Positions 1-10,896 of a DNA stretch of 29,926 nucleotides are shown here, in pieces. Numbering within the stretch: position 1 is the first letter of the stretch; each line of letters opens with the position of its first letter. The notes under the pieces are model-generated. The model was not told where the DNA came from and did no database searches. It saw only the letters and a list, made by a program, of their open reading frames with translations. This DNA comes from a virus. Both the position numbers and the translations under genes were made by a program. Where the stretch lies: positions 1 through 29,926 of the IMG/VR virus record IMGVR_UViG_3300006929_000069. One strand, given 5' to 3'.

Positions 1-152
1 CTATCCATAGTCAAGTCTATCTCATTATCTTCACCATCTTGTGTCATTGTTATTTCTGTACCATCACTATTCGTAATGGTCAGGTCCAAGTCATTAGCAT
101 AGACTGGAAATATGAATAAACTAACCACCAGACTGAATAATAACAATCGCAT
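1..152 (-). CDS. Exported curlin-repeat-like protein, N-terminal part (cut by window edge)
   Basis: The reading frame opens at an ATG (152-150) and runs off the window; about 50 residues are visible. The first 19 or so form a signal peptide (MRLLLFSLVVSLFIFPVYA, then ND). The mature start is a β-prone stretch rich in D, T and I, with a TQDGEDNEIDL element that resembles the Q-x-G-x-x-N core of curlin repeats and the repeats of the exported protein at 1239-1922. It overlaps the end of the FecR-domain gene by 32 nt and is the last visible member of the csgF/csgG-like operon. My inference is that it is a second substrate of the CsgG-like channel or a nucleator analogous to CsgB. Only the leader and one repeat can be seen, so this assignment is tentative. 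Confidence 0.6.
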   Translation of the reverse strand, partial: MRLLLFSLVVSLFIFPVYANDLDLTITNSDGTEITMTQDGEDNEIDLTMD

Positions 153-1239
153 TTTCTGATCCTCCTAGTTCGTAGTCCATTATTTCAAAATCTCCTTGCA
201 ACACGTTGATTTGATAACCATACTCTTTATCTAATACCAATCGTATTATACTACCCGATGAGGCCTCTCGTTCCCATATCCACATTGGGTCATCGTCTAC
301 TACTAAAATACCCGTGATTGGGTCTTTGCCTGTTCTAACTTTAGATGGATCACCCGAACCTACTCGTGCTGTTTCTTTCTCTGATATTTTGTCGCCTAAA
401 GTTTTAGCAAGTTGGGCGTTGATGACCTTGAGTAAGTCAACCAAAAAGTTCTGTTCTAGAAAGTCTATGTCTAGGCCTGTTGCCCATGTGGACTCATCTT
501 CTTCTAAATGGTCTACTTCTAAATCATCAAACTGTAGAAAGTCTACATCTAACATACTGGCTACTTCTTGGAAGTATTCTGCTTCTTGTGCTTCTGCTAT
601 CTCTTTTGGTTTAGATATGATGAGTAGGTTACTAATCAACTCCTCATCTAAATCTAATATTACAGGTTTCATTGGTGAAGATGCTGAGGTAGTAACTACC
701 GTAGCCTGAAATGCCTGATTAAGTATTACTTGTCCTGCATCAGTAGTGACATCAATCTCCCCAACGAAACAGTTTCCGTTTGTATCGCACGATGGCAATA
801 GAATGATAGTAGACCCTCCGAGTTCATCTACTGTCATTGTAAAATCTGTACCACGGACACCAATCGTTGCCGTGGGTGTTTCTATCTTTACATTCTGTTT
901 AGAGTTCTTGGCAATCAGACCGGAAGCATAACGTATCGTACCAAGAGATGCCTTGATAGATAATGTTCCCGTCTTTGTTGCTGGGTCATATACAAACTCA
1001 TCAATCACCAACTTGCTATGTTCGGTAACATCAACCCGCGTTGCATCGACAAACTCAATTGCTGTTTTACCATCACCTGTTTTTACAACGTCATAAGAGA
1101 ATACGTCCAAGTCTATCTCAGACGTATTCTCCGTTCCATCTTTTTGTTCTATTACAGTATTACCTTCCTGTAATATTACATTTCCGATGCTAGCATGTGC
1201 TGTTGATATAAGCAACAGTAACAATAATAAAATTTTCAT
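121..1239 (-). CDS. Exported FecR-domain protein
   Basis: A 372-residue protein with a clear signal peptide (MKILLLLLLLISTAHA). Residues about 18-150 look like a FecR domain: an IGNVILQEGNTVIEQ opening, a region around VKTGDGKTAIEFVDATRV, and a closing IETPTATIGVRGTDF motif, which is typical of the periplasmic FecR β-fold. The rest is acidic and unassigned; about residues 195-265 are rich in leucine and acidic residues. In bacteria, FecR domains occur in anti-sigma regulators and also in stand-alone exported proteins. No cytoplasmic N-terminal part or transmembrane helix after the signal is visible here, so a signalling role is unlikely. It starts at a TAATG overlap with the curlin-like gene, which ties it to the csgF/csgG block. 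A periplasmic or surface accessory role is inferred. Confidence 0.8.
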   Translation of the reverse strand: MKILLLLLLLISTAHASIGNVILQEGNTVIEQKDGTENTSEIDLDVFSYDVVKTGDGKTAIEFVDATRVDVTEHSKLVIDEFVYDPATKTGTLSIKASLGTIRYASGLIAKNSKQNVKIETPTATIGVRGTDFTMTVDELGGSTIILLPSCDTNGNCFVGEIDVTTDAGQVILNQAFQATVVTTSASSPMKPVILDLDEELISNLLIISKPKEIAEAQEAEYFQEVASMLDVDFLQFDDLEVDHLEEDESTWATGLDIDFLEQNFLVDLLKVINAQLAKTLGDKISEKETARVGSGDPSKVRTGKDPITGILVVDDDPMWIWEREASSGSIIRLVLDKEYGYQINVLQGDFEIMDYELGGSENAIVIIQSGG

Positions 1240-1922
1240 TAGTCTGTTTGACTGATATCAATATCGTGGTTGTCTCCGGTTGTTGACAGTGTTACCATAT
1301 TGTCATAGATACCCGACTGTGTTACATCAACATCAGCAATACTTCCAACGTGTGTATGAATATAAGTATGACCTGCAGAATCGCCGTCTCCATTTATATC
1401 AATCAAATAGTTGTTGGTATCACCGTTGACTGTTAGTGTTAGAATGGCTGATGTGCCATCTATGGTAGCAGCAATTACGTTACTGTCACTACCAGAAGCA
1501 CCAGTAATATTTACTGTTGCGTTTGCGGCATCGGCATCTTCACCAATATCAATATCAATATTCGATGATGAACCTATCCAAGTTATGTTTGCTGTTGCGG
1601 TAGCACAAGACGAACCTGTACCATCACTATCGCAATTGAAATCAATATTGTTACTGTTACCAGTTGTTGAAAATGTGCCTGTAAAGGTTGCACCATTGAC
1701 ATCAAAGGTCAATACGTTTGTATTACCTATTTGGTCAATATCAATAGTAGTTGTTGCACCAGTAACTGTTGATGCTGTTGTACTATTACCTACCGTATTG
1801 TTTTGCCCATCTTGAGTAATATCAAGATCCAGTGTTGCACCTGATTGTGTTACATAAATATCGTTGGCGTGAGCAAACGACACCATCAAAAGCATAATTA
1901 TTCCGTAGAATAACTTGTTCAT
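1239..1922 (-). CDS. Exported curlin-repeat-like protein (putative CsgA/CsgB-type substrate)
   Basis: A 227-residue exported protein. The ATG at 1922 is chosen because it makes an ATGA overlap with csgG and sits just behind a very strong ribosome site (AAGGAGGAAGG); an ATG seven codons earlier lacks both. After a signal peptide (MNKLFYGIIMLLMVSFAHA) the protein consists of imperfect β-repeats about 20-25 residues apart, several with the curlin core Q/T-x-G-x-x-N: IDIDQIGNTNVL, STTGNSNNIDF, TVNGDTNNYLIDI, STTGDNHDIDISQ. It is very low in K and R and high in D, T, N, G and S, as expected for an amyloid-like or β-solenoid secreted polypeptide. The repeats are looser than in E. coli CsgA. Its position directly after csgF and csgG-like genes supports a secreted substrate role; fibre formation is not shown. 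Confidence 0.72.
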   Translation of the reverse strand: MNKLFYGIIMLLMVSFAHANDIYVTQSGATLDLDITQDGQNNTVGNSTTASTVTGATTTIDIDQIGNTNVLTFDVNGATFTGTFSTTGNSNNIDFNCDSDGTGSSCATATANITWIGSSSNIDIDIGEDADAANATVNITGASGSDSNVIAATIDGTSAILTLTVNGDTNNYLIDINGDGDSAGHTYIHTHVGSIADVDVTQSGIYDNMVTLSTTGDNHDIDISQTD

Positions 1923-2722
1923 CCTTCCTCCTTGTATTTCCATAAGCCCTTCGCTTCACCTTTCTCTATCATCTGTAGCACACTATATTCTATTGTTGTT
2001 CGGATGGCGTAGTTAGTGGGCTCGTTTCTAGCTACTCCGAGTTCTATCTCCAATGCCTTTGTTCCCAAGTCCAAAAACTTGAAAGCATCACCGCCTATTT
2101 TATGGCTGGCAATCGTTTTTGTTGATGATACCGATAGAAGTATCTCTCCCGTTTGAACAGCAACTAGACGTAATGATACCGTGACCTGGTCTGTTCTATA
2201 ACTGTCGTACAGGCCGATGCCAAAATATCTAGCTCCCTCTCCACCACTCTTTACATCAGAATCATAACTTACGATTCCACCCTCTACTATAAGTCCTGCA
2301 AAGAGTAATGGTTTCAAAATGCTCTTGGTATCTCCGTCATATTGTTCTCTGGTTGAACGGATAAGTTGTCTCTCTTTTATTAAACTGTCTAACCCCTGGC
2401 GTTCTACTACCTTAAACCATTTGCCCCCACCAACACACTTCAACGCATCTATAAGATATGTTTCTGGTGCCTGTGATACGGCAGTTGATAACTGTGAAAA
2501 CCTTGTTGATGGTTTTCTTTGTCCTGTTCTGTCTGGAAACTTATATACTGCTATCGTAATTACTTGTTGGTCTAATTCTGGAACGGCCAAAAGTAAATCG
2601 GTAGTAGGTGTCCCTTCCGCATAGGGCAATGACCCATGCAGAATAAACCTTTTACTGGTGGCGTTGAAGTTAGCACATCCAGTTAAAAATATAATACCTA
2701 ACAGTAATAAAACTTTTTTCAA
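1919..2722 (-). CDS. csgG: CsgG-like outer-membrane curli secretion channel lipoprotein
   Basis: A 267-residue CsgG family protein, close to the usual length. A lipoprotein signal ends in the lipobox LTGC (Cys16). Family hallmarks in order are VYKFPDRTGQRKP (about 59-71), a YLIDALK region (89-95), WFKVVERQGLDSLIKERQLIR (102-122, quoted in pieces: WFKVVERQ, LIKERQLIR), a VEGGIVSYDSDVKSGGEGARYFGIG stretch (pieces: VEGGIVSYDSD, KSGGEGARYFGIG), and a terminal GLWKY. CsgG forms a nonameric 36-stranded outer-membrane pore that exports curlin subunits. The start is TTG, giving a TTGA overlap with csgF. The eyelet loop differs from E. coli: KPSTRFSQLSTAV against KPYPASNFSTAV, one residue longer and without the Tyr/Asn/Phe constriction residues. 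The family call is very secure; what it exports is inferred. Confidence 0.95.
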   Translation of the reverse strand: MKKVLLLLGIIFLTGCANFNATSKRFILHGSLPYAEGTPTTDLLLAVPELDQQVITIAVYKFPDRTGQRKPSTRFSQLSTAVSQAPETYLIDALKCVGGGKWFKVVERQGLDSLIKERQLIRSTREQYDGDTKSILKPLLFAGLIVEGGIVSYDSDVKSGGEGARYFGIGLYDSYRTDQVTVSLRLVAVQTGEILLSVSSTKTIASHKIGGDAFKFLDLGTKALEIELGVARNEPTNYAIRTTIEYSVLQMIEKGEAKGLWKYKEEG

Positions 2723-3285
2723 AATCCAAAGTCTCCTACAGGCACAATCATTGTAGATGTTGTACCATCTGCATCCGTTATGACCAAAGTAATCGTTCCC
2801 ATGTCTGGGTCTTTAGTCCAAACTAAAATAGAACCTTCAATATCTGCTGTGCCTGTCAACGGTGCATTACAAGTTTCATTTTCAATTTGTTCATCCGAAC
2901 AAGTTTTAAACATATTGTCCACTAACTGTTTGGACAAGTTGGCATAGATACGACTCTCTACGTTCTTGATAAACTTGTTGATAGTTTTATTCTTTTCATC
3001 TCGTTCATCCTGTCTCTCTTGTGCCTCTACCCGGTCTCTAGCATCTTCTTTTCTATTGTGCTGTAACTGTTCCAGAGAAAGCATATGAGTACTCCATCCG
3101 ATACCACTGAACGATGGACTATGAAACTCATGCACCAAGTCTGACGCAAGAGATTTAGTCATAGCAAAAAACATTAGGCCGATAAAGATAGCCATAATGC
3201 CTGCACCAAAGGTGAAGGACATTATCATCTCTCTAAATGAGAAGTCTGGACCTTTAGTCTTTCTTCTTAGATTGATTTGGTTCAT
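2719..3285 (-). CDS. csgF: CsgF-like curli assembly factor with extended N-terminus
   Basis: A 188-residue protein. An N-terminal basic stretch (residues 1-20) precedes a hydrophobic segment (about 22-45) ending in SLAS. The mature start would be about DLVHEFHSPSFSG, matching the F-x-NPxFGG start of CsgF that inserts into the CsgG channel mouth. The C-terminal TLVITDADGTTSTMIVP aligns with the closing NVTDRKTGQTSTI region of E. coli CsgF. Between them lies a highly charged linker (about 75-105, RKEDARDRVEAQERQ) that E. coli CsgF does not have in this form. The ATG at 3285 has a good ribosome site (AAAGGA), although in-frame ATGs at 3228 and 3222 could give a shorter signal. It lies immediately upstream of csgG. 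In the family CsgF couples secretion to nucleation at the cell surface. Confidence 0.82.
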   Translation of the reverse strand: MNQINLRRKTKGPDFSFREMIMSFTFGAGIMAIFIGLMFFAMTKSLASDLVHEFHSPSFSGIGWSTHMLSLEQLQHNRKEDARDRVEAQERQDERDEKNKTINKFIKNVESRIYANLSKQLVDNMFKTCSDEQIENETCNAPLTGTADIEGSILVWTKDPDMGTITLVITDADGTTSTMIVPVGDFGF

Positions 3286-3532
3286 ATTTATCCTTTAGTT
3301 TTAATGCTTCATCCATTTCGATGAAGATATTAAGTTTTTGGTCTAATCGTATTAAGTCGTTATCTAACATTCTAATACGGTCTATCAGAGCAATTAAAAC
3401 TGTTGCCGTCGCACCCAGTTTTGGTTTTATTTCCGTTGTTACAAACTTCCAAATAAAGAATATAAAATATCCCATACCCCCGGCAACAACTATGGGTAAC
3501 CCATATTGATTTACTAATGCTACAATATCCAT
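3254..3532 (-). CDS. Small single-pass membrane protein with coiled-coil tail
   Basis: 92 residues with one hydrophobic helix (about 12-32, including VVAGGMGYFIFFIWKFV), followed by an amphipathic region (about 45-70, LIDRIRMLDNDLIRLDQKL) and a lysine-rich end. It resembles the protein at 3899-4186 in layout and in the D-R-x-x-x-x-[DN]-N-[DE]-[LV]-[IV]-R-[LI]-D pattern, so the two are probably paralogues. It starts at a TAATG overlap with the SWIM gene and overlaps csgF by 32 nt. Similar small membrane proteins are common among marine phage envelope genes; a holin or inner-membrane accessory role is possible but nothing in the sequence proves one. Confidence 0.75.
   Translation of the reverse strand: MDIVALVNQYGLPIVVAGGMGYFIFFIWKFVTTEIKPKLGATATVLIALIDRIRMLDNDLIRLDQKLNIFIEMDEALKLKDKYEPNQSKKKD
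3285..3292 (-). promoter_or_regulatory. Late promoter-like box (GATAAATA) at csgF start
   Basis: GATAAATA on the minus strand ends at the A of the csgF ATG at 3285. If used, the transcript would begin inside the current csgF reading frame and translation would need one of the later ATGs (3228 or 3222), the latter preceded by GAGAG. The match also overlaps the ribosome site, so it may be chance. Confidence 0.3.
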
Positions 3533-3723: not shown

Positions 3724-3899
3724 AGTACAACAGTCTCCGGTTCTACTTTCAAAAGCCAACCATGTTCGTTGACTACAAAAATATCTCCGGGTTTGTATAA
3801 TGAATATTCACCCTTTTCCATGACTTCATTAGGCGTATCGCCCACGACCTTGAAAGCCCCATTGGGTGCTTGGTCTATAGAATAATCTACCCACATCAT
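3720..3899 (-). CDS. Small hypothetical protein, 59 residues
   Basis: A short gene found by reading the gap between two neighbours. It starts with ATGATG at a TAATG overlap with the membrane-protein gene above it and ends in an ATGA overlap with the SWIM gene below it, so it fits perfectly into the chain of coupled genes. The product begins MMWVDYSIDQAPNGAFKVVG and continues through a KPGDIFVVNEHGWLLKVE segment, suggesting a small all-β domain. No signal peptide or membrane segment is visible. I do not recognise the family. Confidence 0.7.
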   Translation of the reverse strand: MMWVDYSIDQAPNGAFKVVGDTPNEVMEKGEYSLYKPGDIFVVNEHGWLLKVEPETVVL

Positions 3900-4186
3900 T
3901 AGTCTTTCCTCGCGTCTTTTTGCCCATCTGCTCGGGCAATTCTATCCAAATCAGGTTTAACACCGACAACGGTGCTTATTAACGTGTCAATACGAACGAC
4001 CTCATTGTTCATCGTTTTTACACGATTGTCCAATGCAGTAATCATCCCATGTAAAGATGCGGCCTGTCCGACAACAGACTCAAGGATATACTTCAATAGA
4101 AGTACAATAAAGAAACCGCCAGCAAGTGTACCTGCTGCGGCGAAGCCTAACTCTAGAAATTCAGCTAGGGCATTTGGTTCGGCCAT
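3899..4186 (-). CDS. Small single-pass membrane protein with coiled-coil tail
   Basis: 95 residues. A hydrophobic helix covers about residues 13-35 (GFAAAGTLAGGFFIVLLLKY), followed by a helical region with ALDNRVKTMNNEVVRIDTLI and a charged end. Layout and motif are like the protein at 3254-3532, suggesting an old duplication. It lies four bases after the DUF6356-like gene. It could be a holin-like or structural membrane protein; no catalytic signature is present. Confidence 0.72.
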   Translation of the reverse strand: MAEPNALAEFLELGFAAAGTLAGGFFIVLLLKYILESVVGQAASLHGMITALDNRVKTMNNEVVRIDTLISTVVGVKPDLDRIARADGQKDARKD

Positions 4187-4190
4187 ACTA

Positions 4191-4400
4191 TCATGTTTCC
4201 TTTCCCCTATGTTTCATATCTTTGCTCATTTCACAAACAATGTCACTTGCCGTTCTTGCGAACAGAAAAGGTAATATAGCATGTACCAACGCAATAAAAA
4301 ATAATATCAAAAAGGTGAGCGCAAACCGTGCAGCTTGAGACAGATGCTGCAGGTAAGACTCACCGACACTTTTAGGATGTTCTGTAAATATATTTTTCAC
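4191..4400 (-). CDS. DUF6356-like small membrane protein
   Basis: 69 residues opening with MKNIFTEHPKSVGESYLQHL, followed by a long hydrophobic helix pair (ALTFLILFFIALVHAILPFLF). The HPxSVGExYxxH signature and the VHAxLPFLF motif match, from memory, a small membrane protein family common in Proteobacteria and annotated DUF6356, whose role is unknown. Its presence in a phage suggests capture from a host. It lies 25 bases downstream of the second TIM-barrel gene and upstream of other small membrane proteins. The family assignment is fairly likely, the number less so. Confidence 0.75.
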   Translation of the reverse strand: MKNIFTEHPKSVGESYLQHLSQAARFALTFLILFFIALVHAILPFLFARTASDIVCEMSKDMKHRGKET

Positions 4401-4425
4401 AGAACTATTTAGTCAAAACTTTACT

Positions 4426-5535
4426 TTAATCAAACGTACCAGTAAGGCCAAAAAAGATTCTATTACTATTGAAACCATCTGTTACTGTATGTGTTAGTTC
4501 TGTACCAAAGTTTAATTTCTTATGGCCTTTTTCAAACAAATTAAATGTTTTCTTTGTACCATAACTCTGCCAATTATCTGTGGCATCAAACTTCAATTCA
4601 AAATCATAGTTGGTGTGTAGATAGTATGCACCTACGGCAAGAGCAGCTATACCCAATACGGCCATTGCATACTCACCATCTCTATTCTTTTTAGGTACTT
4701 CTTCTGCACCACAGAATTGTATATTTCTTCCATTACCAGTTCCTACTGCACCCATCTGACACATTAGATCACCTAATGCTTTTGCCTGTGCAGTCTCACT
4801 GTACAAAGCATACTCATTTGCAACAACAGGTATACCTAATTGTAGTGCTTCATTCAACATACTCTTTGCGAGTTCTGTATCAGCAACATAATCGCCTGAT
4901 AGATGATTGCCTATCTGTAGAAAGATATAGTCAGCACCTTTGTAATAACTTATGTCTTTCTTGTAACCACCAACGCCTGGCGCAAGATGTACGGCAACAG
5001 GTTTGTTTGTTCTTGCTTTTATGTAAGCAACATAATGATTTACTGTTGCGGCACTCCAATACTCATCAAGTTCTAGGCCTACCACATAAGCAGCAACTTG
5101 TGAATCGGACTGTACAATAGTTTTATCTATGAAGGCTTCATGTTCCGCCTGTGATACTTTATAATCACCATGACGTTGTTCACCTGTCATCCAAAGTACA
5201 GGTTTCAGTCCATTATCATTGAGTTGTTTTAGTTTGGCGTGTAGATTTTCGTTTGGGTCTACTACACCGCCGGGGAGGACACCACTACTTGCTCTGGCAT
5301 ACACATCAATATGTGTATCACCATTGTTCTTGAGTCGTGTTATATAATTGAGCCTTTCTGTATCGTTCCAAGTTCTAGAAAGGTACAACAAAGATGTACT
5401 ATATTTGCTGTCAAATATATCTCCTAACAGAAAGGAAGACCTTACACCATGTAAAGTATTTGCCTGAGCACCGCTTACTACAATACTAAAAAGTACCGCT
5501 AAACGTAAAAAGAATTCTGTTATTGATGGAGTCAT
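4426..5535 (-). CDS. Exported TIM-barrel-like putative glycosidase, copy 2
   Basis: 369 residues with a signal peptide (hydrophobic 8-24, then AQA-N), an α/β region of about 250 residues, a Cys-containing end, a hydrophobic helix (about 289-305), and a β-rich C-terminal tail ending in GLTGTFD. The body has a barrel-like strand rhythm (LKPVLWM, AAYVVGLELDEYW, PVAVHLAP, ADYIFLQ, IPVVANEY). Two glutamates, E155 in GLELDEYW and E241 in VVANEY, lie at the ends of probable strands 4 and 7, as in clan GH-A glycosidases; this is an inference. It is a full-length paralogue of the gene at 5486-6595 and overlaps it by 50 nt. The ribosome site is weak, so it may depend on translation of the first copy. 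The substrate is unknown. Confidence 0.72.
   Translation of the reverse strand: MTPSITEFFLRLAVLFSIVVSGAQANTLHGVRSSFLLGDIFDSKYSTSLLYLSRTWNDTERLNYITRLKNNGDTHIDVYARASSGVLPGGVVDPNENLHAKLKQLNDNGLKPVLWMTGEQRHGDYKVSQAEHEAFIDKTIVQSDSQVAAYVVGLELDEYWSAATVNHYVAYIKARTNKPVAVHLAPGVGGYKKDISYYKGADYIFLQIGNHLSGDYVADTELAKSMLNEALQLGIPVVANEYALYSETAQAKALGDLMCQMGAVGTGNGRNIQFCGAEEVPKKNRDGEYAMAVLGIAALAVGAYYLHTNYDFELKFDATDNWQSYGTKKTFNLFEKGHKKLNFGTELTHTVTDGFNSNRIFFGLTGTFD
4541..4627 (-). repeat. Near-identical segment shared by the two TIM-barrel genes (copy 2)
   Basis: 87 nt that differ by about six bases from 5598-5684. It encodes the end of the membrane helix and the FELKF-x-ATDNWQSYGTKK region. The rest of the two genes has diverged far more. 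Confidence 0.85.
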
Positions 5536-6595
5536 TTGCTACTTGATGGGTAAACTCTGTATTAAAGTTTATTGTGGTATCTTTCTTTTCAAATAAATTA
5601 AATGTTTTCTTTGTACCATAACTCTGCCAATTATCTGTAGCATTAAACTTCAATTCAAAATCATAATTGGTATGTAGATAATAAGCTGCGACACCAAGAA
5701 CTATAATACCTACAGCAGCCATTGCCATATCAGCATCATTGTTTTTCTTTTTCGGTGGTTCTTCATGCCCGCAGTAATTAATACTTCTACCGTTACCAGT
5801 ACCTATTGCACCAGCAGCACACGCTGCATCTCCCAATGCTCTGGCGGTCGCTGTTCTACTTTCTTTTGAATGCTCGGAGGCGACAACTGGTTTACCTGTA
5901 ACGGCCATTGCGTGTTTGACCATTGCGGCAATTTGTGCAGGAGTTTTATTCCATCCTGTTTGAAGGAAGACATAATCTGCATTAGCATAATAAGCTGTGT
6001 TGCCTCTGTGGCCTCCAACACCTGATGTTAAATGAACACCAACAGGTTTGTTCGTTTTACTTTTTAGATGTGCGACTAGAGCCTGAACTTGAGCGGCAGA
6101 GAAATATTCATCACATTCAAGGCACGTTACATATCCAGTTACCTTGTTATCGAATCTAGTAACCATCTGGTCAAAGTGTGCCTTCTGGGCATCCATAGAT
6201 TGACTAGTAATATTTCTACTATCGTCTGGTGTCAACCATAGAACTGGTTTGAGTCCCATGTTATTGAGTTCATCTAGTCTTGCTTCCCAATCTGGTTGGG
6301 GACTGATGGCACTGAGATTGAACCCACCACCATTGTCTCCGCCGTTTCTGGTGTAGAGATAGATGTGAGTATCGCCATTGGCCTTTGCAGCATTTCTCAT
6401 ACCGACCTTATTGGCGTTGGGGTGTAGATAGTTAAGTGTCATCCACTTACTATCCATCATTAAAAAACTAGCACGAGAACCGTGTAGTGAATATGTTGTA
6501 TCGTATGCGCTAACTGTCGTGCTTACGAGTAGACTTATTGTCAAACATATCAATTTGCTTAGATGACGGCTTCCCAGCCTTTTCACGGAGAGCAT
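5486..6595 (-). CDS. Exported TIM-barrel-like putative glycosidase, copy 1
   Basis: 369 residues, the same length as its tandem paralogue. Signal peptide: basic MLSVKRLGSRHLSK, hydrophobic to about residue 28, then VSA-Y. The barrel-like body includes LKPVLWL, YVTCLECDEYFSA, KPVGVHLTSGVGG, ADYVFLQTG and KPVVASEH; E160 and E241 match the putative acid/base and nucleophile positions of copy 2. A proline/lysine-rich hinge (EEPPKKKNN) precedes a helix (289-306) and a β-rich tail that ends in phenylalanine (LFTFSGTF), a feature shared with outer-membrane β proteins. The ATG has a good ribosome site (GAGGAAAG). Its first 86 nt lie inside the end of the gene above. It could degrade surface polysaccharide or act in envelope modification. 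Confidence in the fold is moderate, in activity low. Confidence 0.72.
   Translation of the reverse strand: MLSVKRLGSRHLSKLICLTISLLVSTTVSAYDTTYSLHGSRASFLMMDSKWMTLNYLHPNANKVGMRNAAKANGDTHIYLYTRNGGDNGGGFNLSAISPQPDWEARLDELNNMGLKPVLWLTPDDSRNITSQSMDAQKAHFDQMVTRFDNKVTGYVTCLECDEYFSAAQVQALVAHLKSKTNKPVGVHLTSGVGGHRGNTAYYANADYVFLQTGWNKTPAQIAAMVKHAMAVTGKPVVASEHSKESRTATARALGDAACAAGAIGTGNGRSINYCGHEEPPKKKNNDADMAMAAVGIIVLGVAAYYLHTNYDFELKFNATDNWQSYGTKKTFNLFEKKDTTINFNTEFTHQVANDSINNRILFTFSGTF
5598..5684 (-). repeat. Near-identical segment shared by the two TIM-barrel genes (copy 1)
   Basis: Partner of 4541-4627. Most differences between the two copies are silent or conservative, which suggests recent exchange or strong constraint on this C-terminal region. 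Confidence 0.85.
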
Positions 6596-6743
6596 CTTCT
6601 TTCCTCATTATTATGCTCAACATCCTGTCAAGACTAGCATCAAACCAAATTCCAATTTTAGTTTTTGAAAACCATTTATAAAAACTATTTCCAATACATG
6701 AAAAAATAATGGACCTCAATAAAGCCCAAAACAATATGCCCAT
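6510..6743 (-). CDS. Small membrane-anchored protein
   Basis: 77 residues. The N-terminus is hydrophobic (MGILFWALLRSIIFSCIGNSF), followed by a cytoplasmic-looking basic and acidic tail (KEDALREKAGKPSSKQ). It starts at a TAATG overlap with the DUF1353 gene. Its last 86 nt also encode the signal peptide of the next gene in a different frame. It sits within the lysis/envelope cluster, so a holin-related or envelope role is possible, but I do not recognise the family. Confidence 0.65.
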   Translation of the reverse strand: MGILFWALLRSIIFSCIGNSFYKWFSKTKIGIWFDASLDRMLSIIMRKEDALREKAGKPSSKQIDMFDNKSTRKHDS

Positions 6744-7228
6744 TAAGTTTGGGCCATACCCTTACTACGAATAGCGAAACGACCAAAGGGACGGACAGAC
6801 CAATAACATGGTTTGGCCTTCCACATTGCGATAGGCGGTTCAACCTGTTGCATCCCCTCTAGGAATACACGGTCAGCCGCTGCTCTCATTTCATTTACTA
6901 CCTTCTCGTCGTGAGTATTATTCGACAACGCATCACGGAGTGCGCCATATAATACATCGTGAATAATGGCTGGACGGGCAACGTCCCAAGGGGCGACTGC
7001 CACCCATCCTGCCCTGGGGATTGAAGCCAGGTCTGTATCATAACCTTTCGGTGCATATACTTTTGAATAACCTTTCGGTGATTTTGGTGCTGTAATCTTT
7101 ACACCCATATCTTTCCAGGTCTTATGGTGTGAGTTTGCTTCTTTAGTAAGAAACCAAAGCTCCTCGTTGAGTTCCCAATGCATCTTACCATGAAAGGTGC
7201 AATTAAGTTTACCAGACCAGACTTTCAT
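6743..7228 (-). CDS. DUF1353 family protein
   Basis: 161 residues. The central signature PKGYDTDLASIPRAGW, followed by IIHDVLYGAL, matches DUF1353, a family of phage and bacterial proteins often found beside lysis or tail genes. The conserved His-Asp (HDVLY) and Asp in TDLASIP could bind metal, but the activity is not established to my knowledge. The start has a good ribosome site (GGGAGA) overlapping the end of the small membrane-protein gene. It follows the spanins, consistent with a role in envelope breakdown or host-cell exit, which is inference. Confidence 0.85.
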   Translation of the reverse strand: MKVWSGKLNCTFHGKMHWELNEELWFLTKEANSHHKTWKDMGVKITAPKSPKGYSKVYAPKGYDTDLASIPRAGWVAVAPWDVARPAIIHDVLYGALRDALSNNTHDEKVVNEMRAAADRVFLEGMQQVEPPIAMWKAKPCYWSVRPFGRFAIRSKGMAQT

Positions 7229-7406: not shown

Positions 7407-7754
7407 TTACTCCTCGTAATATTCCCGATACTTTTCTAAGATAACAATGTACTCACCTAACTGAGCACGAATCTCTTTAATATTTAGGGCTAGACGTTCA
7501 TAGTCGCCATGACGGAGAGCAAACAATGCAACACCTTCATTGTCATCTCTTAACATTTGCCAAACGGATTCAATGTTGGCTTCTGTTACAATAACCCACT
7601 CCACCTCTCGCAACTCAAGAGGTTGTGGATTTGGAATCTCTAAAGATAACTTATCTATAGCAACGGTAGATACTTCTACCTGTTTGACTTTAGGGGTCAT
7701 TGAACAACCAGCTAAAAACACAACAGCAATCAATAACAAACTCAATTTTTTCAT
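7407..7754 (-). CDS. Outer-membrane lipoprotein, putative o-spanin (Rz1-like)
   Basis: 115 residues with a lipoprotein signal and lipobox LAGC (Cys17). The mature part contains proline-rich PNPQPLELREVEW and a long amphipathic end (IKEIRAQLGEYIVILEKYREYY). It starts at an ATGA overlap with the preceding gene, whose product has an N-terminal anchor and coiled coil. This is the layout of two-component spanins, which join inner and outer membranes and disrupt the outer membrane at lysis. It is longer than classic Rz1 proteins. The call rests on architecture and context. Confidence 0.78.
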   Translation of the reverse strand: MKKLSLLLIAVVFLAGCSMTPKVKQVEVSTVAIDKLSLEIPNPQPLELREVEWVIVTEANIESVWQMLRDDNEGVALFALRHGDYERLALNIKEIRAQLGEYIVILEKYREYYEE

Positions 7755-8221
7755 TCTGTATTCTCCTTACCTAGATTGGGGTTAGCCAAACCAGGACATT
7801 CACGATTACTCTGAGACTTCTTCGTTGCTGCGAGTTCTTCTGGAGTATGTTCTGCACCTGTAGTAAGTTCAAAACATCTCAACTCTGCACCAGATGCTCG
7901 ATTGATAAGTCGGAGAACTAGGGCTGGCTTATTCTGTGCCAGAATATCTAGTTCATGCTTACCTAATTTCTTGGCAAGATTCTTTGAGTCAGCTTGGAGC
8001 TTGACTTGCGCATCTCGTAACTCAGAATTAGCCACTTGAATCTTTGCAGCCTCGGCGGCCTGCTGACGCAATGCCGCTTCGTTTTCTGCAACAGCACCTT
8101 CAAGTTTTTCTTGATTCACTTGAAGGATTTTATTTTCTGCTTGTAGTTTTGTAACCCAACTATAGGCTCCAAACCCACCAGCACCCATTAACATCACTAA
8201 TATAATAACAACCTGTACCAT
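7751..8221 (-). CDS. Membrane-anchored coiled-coil protein, putative i-spanin (Rz-like)
   Basis: 156 residues. A single N-terminal hydrophobic helix (about 3-24, VVIILVMLMGAGGFGAYSWV) is followed by a long alanine- and glutamine-rich coiled coil (about 27-95) and a C-terminal segment with two cysteines (ELRCFEL and NRECPGL). The architecture is that of phage i-spanins: type II membrane anchor plus periplasmic coiled coil. It precedes the lipoprotein gene with a 4-nt overlap. The ribosome site is TGAGG, nine bases before the ATG. An alternative is a general phage membrane adaptor, but the pairing favours a spanin. Confidence 0.78.
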   Translation of the reverse strand: MVQVVIILVMLMGAGGFGAYSWVTKLQAENKILQVNQEKLEGAVAENEAALRQQAAEAAKIQVANSELRDAQVKLQADSKNLAKKLGKHELDILAQNKPALVLRLINRASGAELRCFELTTGAEHTPEELAATKKSQSNRECPGLANPNLGKENTE

Positions 8222-8235
8222 AATATAACCTCAAT

Positions 8236-10896
8236 CTATTTTACATTCGACATAGCAAACTCAGCGAAAGTAAGTACCCCTTGTTTAGTTTTTAACATCT
8301 GTTCAACTTTTGTTTGATTCTGCGGGTTGAGTGCATTATACACTGCAACCATAGCCGAGGCACTGAAAAGATCGACTTTCATACCAGATACCTTACCGGC
8401 TGTTCTCTTATCAACTATTTTTCGTAGCTCATCCATAGGTGACTTGGCTTCGTGGATAAAACGGCTTTCAGCAGATTCAATAACCCACTGGCCATCGTAA
8501 TTCTTCTTATGCTTATGCAACTTGATACCCTTCTTCTGCATATACGCTACCATTCTCGTATCATTGAAAAAATCTTTAAATGCAGGTCGAATATCACCCT
8601 TGGGACCTTTCTTGTCAAGAATCTTCTCAACCTCATCCCAAACTTCATCATCGCCAATAGTATTAAAATACTTTTTCTCTGCATCACCTGCAGGAATAGG
8701 CTTCTGCATCAACTTCATAAACTTATCATAATCTTTTTGTTTACCAGGAATTGCCCATGTTCCTTCATGGATATATTCTTCTCGGGCCATACGACCCTTT
8801 ACAACATCCTTCCGTTTCTTCTCCATACCTTTCAAACGGGCACCTGGTTTTAGTTTAGTAGTCTTACCGCCACCCTTTTTGAACTTAGTAATTGCCTTAT
8901 CTAAATCTCCACGGGGTTTTGGTGTCGGACGAATACTTTCCCCTACTGGATCTTCGTCTTGCTCATCCGAATCTTTTTTTTGAGCTTTCTTAGCAGCGAT
9001 TGCTTTCTTGAGGGCGGGTGGGAGTTCACCTTCTGAAAAGTCTTGCTGTTCTTCTTTTGTCCAGTTCTTGTCGATGTAATCAAAAAATGACTTCTTCTTC
9101 TCGCCCTCTAACTCAGCAGGACTCTTTGCACCAAACTTCTTCAGTGCTGCTTGGAAAAACTTCTGATACTCTTCCTTTGTGCCTTCTGTCACCATGGCTC
9201 TGTGATGCACACGGGATTCAAAATGTGTATCTTTGAAATCGTCCATATCTTCAAAATCATCCGCATCGCCGTAACCACTCTTGGTATACCACTTCCAAAT
9301 ATCTTCGATACTCTTACCAGAAACTTCCCATTCATCCTGACCTGGGTTTACATCCTTCTGAGATATCTTTCCTTTGAGGCGAAACTTCGCTAGAGACTTT
9401 TTCATCTCTTTATTATCCATTGCATCAAAGTGACCTTTGACTGCTTCGTGGACAACTTCTTCGTTGGCATCTTGCAACGCAGCCTTTACTGTAGGCTCGT
9501 CACCAAGACCTCGTTTGATTTTTTCAATCTTCTTCCAAGCGCCTGTCATGTTGCCTTCCATATCGTAAGCAATCTTGATAGCCTTTTCGACATCTCCAGA
9601 TTTAAACTTTGCTTCATCCAAATCTTCTTCATCAAGACCTTTAGCAACAGCGTTCATCTTCTTGACCGATGCATTCATCGCAGCAAGTTTTTCCTTACGG
9701 AGAGCGATTCGTTTCAGAGTTTCTTTATAAGACTTTGAACGACCATCAACCTTTTGAGATTTTTTCTCAGGTTGGACTTCTTCTTTCTCGTCCTCATCGT
9801 CCTTCCAGTTCTCTACTTTCGGAGGAGTAGCCGGGACTGCATCAGCAGCATTCTGCCATACCTGTTTGATAACATCTTCAATGCTACCCTGTTTTGTTTC
9901 TAGATATTTTTTACTCATAGTTGATTCGTCCGTTTTTTGCTTTTCTTTTTTCTTAGTTAGCAAATCGTTAAGTTTTTGTACTCTCTCCGCATCTTTGGCC
10001 ATACTCAGTTGAGCCTGGGCAATAGCCTTTTTGATTTTTAATTCTTTACCTAATTCTTTATTAGCCTTTGGATCCTTTTTCATATCAGCTTCATCTACAG
10101 ATTCTTTCTTGGCCAGGTTAGTGGCGACACCCATCTTTACCTGTTTCCATTTCTCACCATACTTCTCTTTAAACTTTGCATCATCCAGGTCTTTGGCAAT
10201 CTCCTCTCTACGTTTTAATTCAGTAGGAGTTAATGTTCGTTCTTCTATATTTATACTTTCTTCTTTTCTCAAACGAGGTTCCCGTCTATTCCAAGAGCGG
10301 TCAGTTACTTTAAGATTATCTTCCTCATTGTTTAGCGGATCATTATCTTTATGATGAACGTCTTTACCGTCACCTCTAGCAGCCTTACCGTTCTTTATCA
10401 TAAGACGGCGTGCTCTTAAACGAGCCGCATTTCTTTCCATCTGCTCTGGTTTGGAATGATAGTTTTCACGTTCCTTTGCATAGTTTCTTTCAGCCAAGTC
10501 ATCTTCAGATTCTTCGCCTCTCAACTTTCTATAAGTCGAAGCCATCTTTTTCTTTTTTTCTTTTGCTTTATCTAAAGCGTCTTGTGCTGCTTTGACTTTA
10601 CTTTTAGCACCATAAAATGCTCGGGCAGGTCCTGTTGATTTTAGTTTAGACTTAACTGCACCAACAGCCTTCTTCTTTAACTCCCCTGCTTTCTTTTTAG
10701 CCGCCTGTTTGGCCATATCAGCTGCACGGGATGCAATACCTTCTTCTATCTGTTCTTTGGTCAGTCTGCGTTTCCGTTTAAAAATTTTAGGTTTCTTTTT
10801 AACTACTACTGTAGAATCATCATCTCCAGTACCGGCAACTGCTGTACCCGTAGCATTAGTAGGAACTTCCTCTACCCACAAACCATAACGCTTCAT
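8236..10896 (-). CDS. Modular virion-type polyprotein with HNH-like motif and putative prohead protease sites
   Basis: 886 residues, extremely rich in K, E, D and A. The N-terminus (MKRYGLWVEE) loosely resembles a capsid-targeting peptide. Residues about 178-205 form an HNH-nuclease-like motif (DVHHKDNDPLNNEEDNLKV, then NRRE). Downstream, small globular modules follow sites of the form [ILV]-x-E/[AG]: VDE269/A, LDE428/A, VHE484/A, VTE571/G, IHE711/G and IHE816/A. These match the T4 gp21 prohead protease preference. Modules include one with KFFQAALKKFGAKSPAEL (579-596), one with KFMKLMQKPIPAGDA (725-739), and a final one from 817. Similar modules occur, from memory, in marine T4-like virion proteins. 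Processing during head maturation is inferred. It starts at an ATGA overlap with the upstream gene. Confidence 0.7.
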   Translation of the reverse strand: MKRYGLWVEEVPTNATGTAVAGTGDDDSTVVVKKKPKIFKRKRRLTKEQIEEGIASRAADMAKQAAKKKAGELKKKAVGAVKSKLKSTGPARAFYGAKSKVKAAQDALDKAKEKKKKMASTYRKLRGEESEDDLAERNYAKERENYHSKPEQMERNAARLRARRLMIKNGKAARGDGKDVHHKDNDPLNNEEDNLKVTDRSWNRREPRLRKEESINIEERTLTPTELKRREEIAKDLDDAKFKEKYGEKWKQVKMGVATNLAKKESVDEADMKKDPKANKELGKELKIKKAIAQAQLSMAKDAERVQKLNDLLTKKKEKQKTDESTMSKKYLETKQGSIEDVIKQVWQNAADAVPATPPKVENWKDDEDEKEEVQPEKKSQKVDGRSKSYKETLKRIALRKEKLAAMNASVKKMNAVAKGLDEEDLDEAKFKSGDVEKAIKIAYDMEGNMTGAWKKIEKIKRGLGDEPTVKAALQDANEEVVHEAVKGHFDAMDNKEMKKSLAKFRLKGKISQKDVNPGQDEWEVSGKSIEDIWKWYTKSGYGDADDFEDMDDFKDTHFESRVHHRAMVTEGTKEEYQKFFQAALKKFGAKSPAELEGEKKKSFFDYIDKNWTKEEQQDFSEGELPPALKKAIAAKKAQKKDSDEQDEDPVGESIRPTPKPRGDLDKAITKFKKGGGKTTKLKPGARLKGMEKKRKDVVKGRMAREEYIHEGTWAIPGKQKDYDKFMKLMQKPIPAGDAEKKYFNTIGDDEVWDEVEKILDKKGPKGDIRPAFKDFFNDTRMVAYMQKKGIKLHKHKKNYDGQWVIESAESRFIHEAKSPMDELRKIVDKRTAGKVSGMKVDLFSASAMVAVYNALNPQNQTKVEQMLKTKQGVLTFAEFAMSNVK

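Follow-up and report, generated by a model that had tools for sequence, protein, structure and literature searches.

Gene pair and its neighbourhood

The window analysed here is the whole of a 29.9-kb IMG/VR virus record, the source of which is regarded as a marine phage. Two open reading frames encoding 369 residues each, P0002 (5486..6595) and P0001 (4426..5535), lie in tandem on its minus strand. P0002 comprises a signal peptide, a clan GH-A-like barrel, a helix, and a putative four-strand C-terminal anchor, as deduced from an AlphaFold model; its paralogue P0001 is 47% identical and has the same architecture by alignment, so that by homology it would adopt the same fold. Both proteins carry Sec-type signal peptides by inspection (VSGAQA-NT and TTVSA-YD). 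The earlier note had described two exported 369-residue proteins in tandem, and its coordinates were correct, with both genes on the minus strand and export judged from the signal peptides. The two genes overlap by 50 nt (5486..5535, minus strand, from the reading-frame coordinates), and, unusually, this segment codes twice, for the last beta strand of P0002 and for the signal peptide of P0001. Overlaps of 41-59 nt with a similar layout were found in the tandem pairs of loci L002, L003, L016, L017, and L018, which suggests translational coupling. At the right end of the window, a phage DNA polymerase fragment, a 2OG hydroxylase, and replication-type genes were recognized by eye.

All neighbouring genes described below are on the minus strand, and their order was determined along it. 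The series begins with an Rz-like i-spanin (7751..8221; phrog_739, E 6.4e-8), an Rz1-like o-spanin lipoprotein (7407..7754; phrog_812 Rz-like spanin, E 1.6e-9), a DUF1353 protein (6743..7228; PF07087, E 1.7e-13), and a small membrane protein called as an open reading frame (6510..6743), which overlaps the start of P0002. P0002 and P0001 follow, and directly downstream of P0001 are a DUF6356 small membrane protein (4194..4412; PF19883, E 3.8e-26), a holin-like small membrane protein with one hydrophobic N-terminal helix by inspection (3899..4186; phrog_18771, E 2.9e-24), a SWIM zinc-finger protein, a second phrog_18771 small membrane protein (3254..3532; E 1.3e-31), and then CsgF, CsgG, a curlin-repeat protein, and a FecR protein. 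The designation holin-like is a label given by inspection, as phrog_18771 carries no assigned function in PHROGs. Related loci retain this order of genes on either side of the family gene, and homologues of the small membrane protein at 6510..6743 were found in seven loci, adjoining the family gene where they could be placed. P0001 and P0002 are thus located in a spanin/holin-like lysis cassette, a setting absent from the earlier note. Phospholipase A2 activity has been demonstrated for one DUF1353 protein (PMC11525133), and on this basis the DUF1353 protein of the window may be a membrane-attacking lysis enzyme. In locus L017, a small exported c-type cytochrome (3952-4353; PF13442) is encoded within the lysis cassette, between the DUF1353 and family genes.

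In another phage group, a lipoprotein with a C-terminal transmembrane segment is encoded directly upstream of the family gene (15 of 46 loci; for example, L078 4227-4688, L034 1509-2015, and L080 5468-5971, among other loci), and these examples have a glycine-rich middle. By its layout, this lipoprotein looks like a unimolecular spanin; it had no spanin model match. DUF6356 and other small membrane proteins are also encoded near the family gene in these loci.

The lysis setting is not universal, since in L002, L006, L048, and L062 the family gene comes after a possible tail-fibre-like protein, and elsewhere it follows virion or tail genes. This spread over varied late sites, beside virion structural, tail, possible tail-fibre-like, and lysis genes, is what would be expected if the proteins were surface-modifying cargo, serving superinfection exclusion or receptor destruction instead of lysis, and if their location merely reflected a late cargo insertion site. 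The genes of the window lineage, however, are nested and overlapping in the cassette, between the Rz1/DUF1353 genes and the holin-like genes, and we consider the cargo explanation improbable. Several other neighbourhoods were observed. On viral contig L091 (2284-12825), which encodes a tmRNA and ten tRNAs, the family gene adjoins those for a pyridine-nucleotide oxidoreductase and a Glu/Leu/Phe/Val dehydrogenase. On a podophage-like contig (L084), an MptE-like protein (7546-8415; PF01973) is encoded two genes downstream, and on a bacterial MAG contig (L097), a tRNA-Ala gene (5763-5838) directly precedes the family gene; tRNA genes are common integration sites.

The curli-type block of the window (121-3285) comprises CsgF at its start (2719..3285, minus strand; PF10614, E 4.8e-9), CsgG (1919..2722, minus strand; PF03783, E 1.5e-51), a protein that matches the curlin repeat weakly, and a protein with a FecR domain. 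Pelagiphages and methylophages have curli clusters of this csgF-csgG-curlin-FecR kind, and such phage curli (type VIII) gene clusters have already been published (PMC7029224, PMC9599517, and PMC9004378); the term "TIM barrel" does not occur in these three papers. The earlier note had placed the gene pair directly before the block and had suggested that the proteins may modify the surface used by the curli-like system. The placement was loose, since P0001 and csgF are separated by 1.1 kb containing four genes (those for DUF6356, the two holin-like proteins, and the SWIM zinc-finger protein). The functional link was not supported: of 46 non-redundant loci with a length of 6 kb or more, only six had CsgG/CsgF genes close to the family gene (L003, L004, L005, L041, L046, and L060). 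The curli neighbourhood is therefore lineage-specific and the link incidental. Cooperation of the enzymes with the curli-type secretion block, for instance through removal of polysaccharide from the surroundings of CsgG pores or fibres, would fit the nearby csgF, csgG, curlin-repeat, and FecR genes in the window and in the six other loci, but with CsgG not nearby in the remaining 40 of the 46 loci and four genes between the blocks in the window, we regard it as very improbable.

An IMG/VR alignment query returned 130 matching stretches, corresponding to about 130 viral-contig matches, of which 80 were kept; their loci yielded 72 distinct full or partial family proteins. Bacterial carriers in a genome scan amounted to two MAG contigs, and when 109 genomes of the order of these MAGs were searched, the family was present in those two only. 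With cellular matches limited in this way, the family is considered mainly viral. No convincing model match was obtained for P0001 or P0002 in Pfam, PHROGs, or NCBIfam, no homologue was found among PDB sequences by phmmer and profile search, and tblastn against the 50,697 phage records of INPHARED gave no homologue of P0002. The earlier suggestion that no phage family of this kind has been described was borne out in Pfam, PHROGs, NCBIfam, and INPHARED. The family is therefore without a name in the libraries searched, and it is of sizeable extent in phages.

Barrel domain and candidate catalytic residues

The AlphaFold model of P0002, built with 48 aligned relatives, had a mean pLDDT of 84.6, and values were mostly above 90 in the barrel. 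Approximately residues 32-281 form a (beta/alpha)8 barrel, with strands at 77-81, 116-120, 154-156, 185-188, 208-212, and 237-241 and with bridges near 41-47 and 265-267. The PDB neighbours of this domain identified by Foldseek and VIA-align were clan GH-A-type glycosidases, and the VIA ranking was filled with such enzymes at Z scores of 16-20. The best VIA match was 4n0r (Z 19.7, rmsd 2.9 over 223 residues); GH5 mannanases were returned at Z of about 17-18, together with GH164, GH140, GH35, and GH113 enzymes. Structure prediction and structural search thus agreed with the earlier proposal of a TIM barrel, and they added GH-A-type neighbours.

The glycosidase-like glutamates proposed earlier were also correctly numbered and are placed at strand ends in the P0002 model, where E160 directly follows strand 4 and E241 closes strand 7. 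Each was invariant among the relatives (48 of 48), and in the alignment E160/E241 of P0002 pair with E155/E241 of P0001. E160, the candidate catalytic acid, is part of C158-L159-E160-C161-D162 (6110..6124, minus strand), which forms a turn after strand 4 in the model, whereas E241 (codon 5873..5875, minus strand), at the end of strand 237-241, is the candidate nucleophile. An alternative acid/base candidate is E163, kept in 46 of 48 relatives and replaced by Asp in two.

In clan GH-A, the acid/base Glu usually has an Asn directly before it. In this family, E160 was preceded by L159 in all 48 relatives, and E163 was preceded by D162 in 47, with Asn in L015 only. Neither acid/base candidate of the window proteins is preceded by Asn, and the domain is accordingly named GH-A-like here, with no GH family assigned. 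Sequence comparisons were in line with this caution. No GH match was obtained for P0001 or P0002 in Pfam and NCBIfam scans at E up to 1. Alignment of the barrel profile to GH5 sequences by hhalign gave a weak local match at strand 7 (P = 0.014), in which E241 fell on the Glu of the GH5 TEW stretch, and gave no alignment at strand 4. The family therefore shares with clan GH-A (GH5 mannanases, GH35, GH113, GH140, and GH164) the (beta/alpha)8 barrel and the two Glu residues that follow strand 4 and end strand 7, but differs in having no GH-model sequence match, no Asn before the acid/base candidate, a compact barrel, and, in most members, a CxxC motif around E160.

The CxxC motif (CLEC around E160) was present in 39 of 48 relatives. 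C158 and C161 co-vary and were lost as a pair in the other nine, P0001 among them, with Gly at 158 and Val or Leu at 161. Two further cysteines, C259 and C275, were invariant in the family alignment. This conservation would fit an oxidizing compartment, and C158/C161 could possibly act as a redox switch or as a loop-locking disulphide.

C-terminal tail and homogenized block

The tail of P0002 (residues 276-369; 5489..5770, minus strand) consists of a hydrophobic helix (286-311) followed by four amphipathic strands (313-319, 323-337, 340-353, and 360-368), and the chain ends on Phe. The same layout was obtained when the tail was modelled alone (helix 12-37; strands 39-45, 49-63, 66-79, and 86-94, numbered within the tail). 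The tail of P0001 (4429..4710, minus strand) has this layout as well, and its last residues are Phe-Asp. The helix followed by a beta-rich tail near a terminal Phe, noted earlier as an odd end, was thus confirmed and resolved into a helix and four strands.

In the C-terminal signature of outer-membrane proteins, the hydrophobic rule applies to positions -3, -5, -7, and -9. In 65 family sequences, the last residue was Phe in 51 and Trp in 10, and the chain extended 1-3 residues past a Phe in four. After trimming of 1-3 extra residues in three, all 59 distinct tails had Phe or Trp at -1; position -5 was Tyr or Phe in 51 of 59, positions -3, -7, and -9 were mostly hydrophobic, and positions -2, -4, and -10 were mostly polar. 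Hydrophobic alternation of the last strand was positive in 65 of 65. Judged from these sequence features, the tail ending is an outer-membrane insertion signature (Struyve et al. 1991, as cited in PMC3297439), with an arrangement similar to that of a trimeric-autotransporter anchor.

The type Vc anchor, as represented by YadA, Hia, and AtaA (PF03895), likewise consists of a C-terminal helix and four strands with an aromatic chain end; each chain contributes four strands to a 12-strand barrel, and a C-terminal Bam motif is present (PMC3297439). VIA neighbours of the tail included the anchors of Hia (2gr8, 3emo, and 2gr7) and AtaA (9vnj) at Z 4.5-5.2 and rmsd 1.8-2.0 over about 50 residues, with Z 5.2 for 2gr8, 9vnj, and 3emo, and Hia was aligned C-terminus to C-terminus. 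Unrelated four-strand sheets, however, matched the tail equally well or better (Z up to 6.7), N-methyltransferase sheets ranking slightly above the trimeric-autotransporter anchors, so that the structural likeness is suggestive only. Foldseek with the tail alone gave no match at E < 0.001. By hhalign, the tail scored 16.1 against ten YadA-type anchors, more than any of 100 column shuffles (12.9 at most) or the reversed profile (9.3), which is a weak signal (P = 0.023), and the Pfam model YadA_anchor (PF03895) had no hit in P0001 or P0002 at E up to 1. The family also differs from type Vc proteins in its more hydrophobic helix and in that no coiled-coil stalk was seen. On balance, the odd end is likely an outer-membrane anchor, a reading that was absent from the earlier note.

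The helix bears on a different reading. Its maximum 19-residue Kyte-Doolittle value averaged 1.50 over the family (range 1.04-2.11; 1.56 and 1.86 in the two window proteins), and the maxima of the ten YadA anchors were lower than this mean (0.25-1.07). A helix this hydrophobic may be an inner-membrane segment, in which case the proteins could be periplasmic endolysins or peptidoglycan trimmers whose C-terminal helix holds them in the inner membrane and whose beta tail is cytoplasmic. The Sec signal combined with this helix and the adjoining spanin and holin-like genes would suit such a role, as would the outcome of a search with PF00959, PF08291, and PF01510 only, in which the window record and most of the 14 viral records covered, these being mostly fragments, had no match to lysozyme, M15_3, or Amidase_2. 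Two records with family genes, by contrast, encode a separate 278-aa Phage_lysozyme protein, which makes a murein-hydrolase role of the family less likely, and a cytoplasmic tail would leave the terminal Phe/Trp and the alternating hydrophobic residues unexplained. No known muralytic domain was found in P0001 or P0002 with Pfam or PHROG, and to our knowledge GH-A enzymes do not serve as murein hydrolases. We therefore judge the endolysin reading unlikely and favour outer-membrane anchoring.

A segment of the tail is nearly identical between the two genes at the DNA level (approximate limits 4526..4612 in P0001 and 5583..5669 in P0002, both minus strand). A repeat search returned the pair 4422-4692/5479-5749, which was 74% identical overall with a core of 74/77 nt, and the two copies of the block share unbroken identical runs of 44 and 21 nt. 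In a codon alignment, the block coincides with the start of the tail strands, where pS was about 0.25; elsewhere, silent sites were near saturation. In 20,000 permutations of codon columns, the longest run was 33 nt, and when only the tail was permuted, 14 of 20,000 reached the 44-nt run. The synonymous comparison along the paralogue alignment gave identical silent codons at 22 of 26 positions in the block versus 62 of 135 outside it (Fisher P = 4e-4). The near-identical stretch pointed out in the earlier note is therefore real and exceeds chance by both permutation and Fisher tests.

The P0001 barrel is 87% identical to its orthologues in L016-L018, but its tail is just 56% identical to theirs and resembles P0002-type tails; its core block is identical to that of P0002 at 74/77 nt and to that of any other relative at 62/77 nt at most. 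L019 is mixed too, with a barrel like that of the second gene of L002/L003 and a tail like first-gene tails. From these two cases, local exchange among tails seems recurrent. The earlier note had offered gene conversion or strong selection on the tail as the cause of the block. Gene conversion appears to fit the sequence patterns better and is supported, whereas protein-level selection as the sole cause was rejected because the silent positions are also unusually alike. A constraint at the RNA level may contribute.

Proposed role in the host envelope

Drawing on the computed fold, glutamate placement, tail layout, C-terminal signature, and gene order, we infer the timing of expression, outer-membrane insertion, oligomeric state, orientation, catalysis, and substrate as follows. 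P0001 and P0002 would be late, Sec-exported, clan GH-A-like glycosidases placed in the host outer membrane, with a glycan of the envelope or surface as substrate, a proposal to which we give an even chance. Both proteins would be expressed late and exported by Sec, after which the BAM machinery would insert the four tail strands, probably in oligomeric form. A trimer could form a 12-strand barrel like that of trimeric autotransporters, the models here being of single chains. The barrel domain, held at the cell surface or at the periplasmic face, would then cleave envelope or surface polysaccharide. Such cleavage might aid envelope disassembly and detach progeny from debris, or it might remove receptors for competing phages. 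P0001 and P0002, at their level of identity, probably differ in substrate and share the anchor, part of which would be kept alike by local gene conversion. A more specific version, in which a self-anchoring GH-A-like glycosidase with a trimeric-autotransporter-like anchor and a possible CxxC redox switch provides a glycan-cleaving release step on the host outer membrane, is put forward tentatively, as we think it more likely to be wrong than right.

Trimeric-autotransporter anchors carry adhesins, and we know of none that carries an enzyme; the passenger of the present family, by comparison, is an enzyme-like barrel. Among viral enzymes, an active GH5 endomannanase is known from soil viruses (PMC6786970). 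Set beside the family by description only, it is likewise a GH-A-type enzyme on a viral contig, whereas the present family repeats one architecture that includes a putative membrane anchor of its own.

Gram-negative hosts are described as being lysed in three steps, carried out by holin, endolysin, and spanin. If the proposal is true, a self-inserting, glycan-cutting outer-membrane phage enzyme would add a lysis step directed against surface or envelope polysaccharide. Compact candidate display anchors, roughly 45-60 residues in length, could also be drawn from the family. As marine virus contigs carry the family repeatedly and in varied neighbourhoods, and the libraries searched hold no annotation for it, a name would assign a likely function to many genes that are at present unlabelled.
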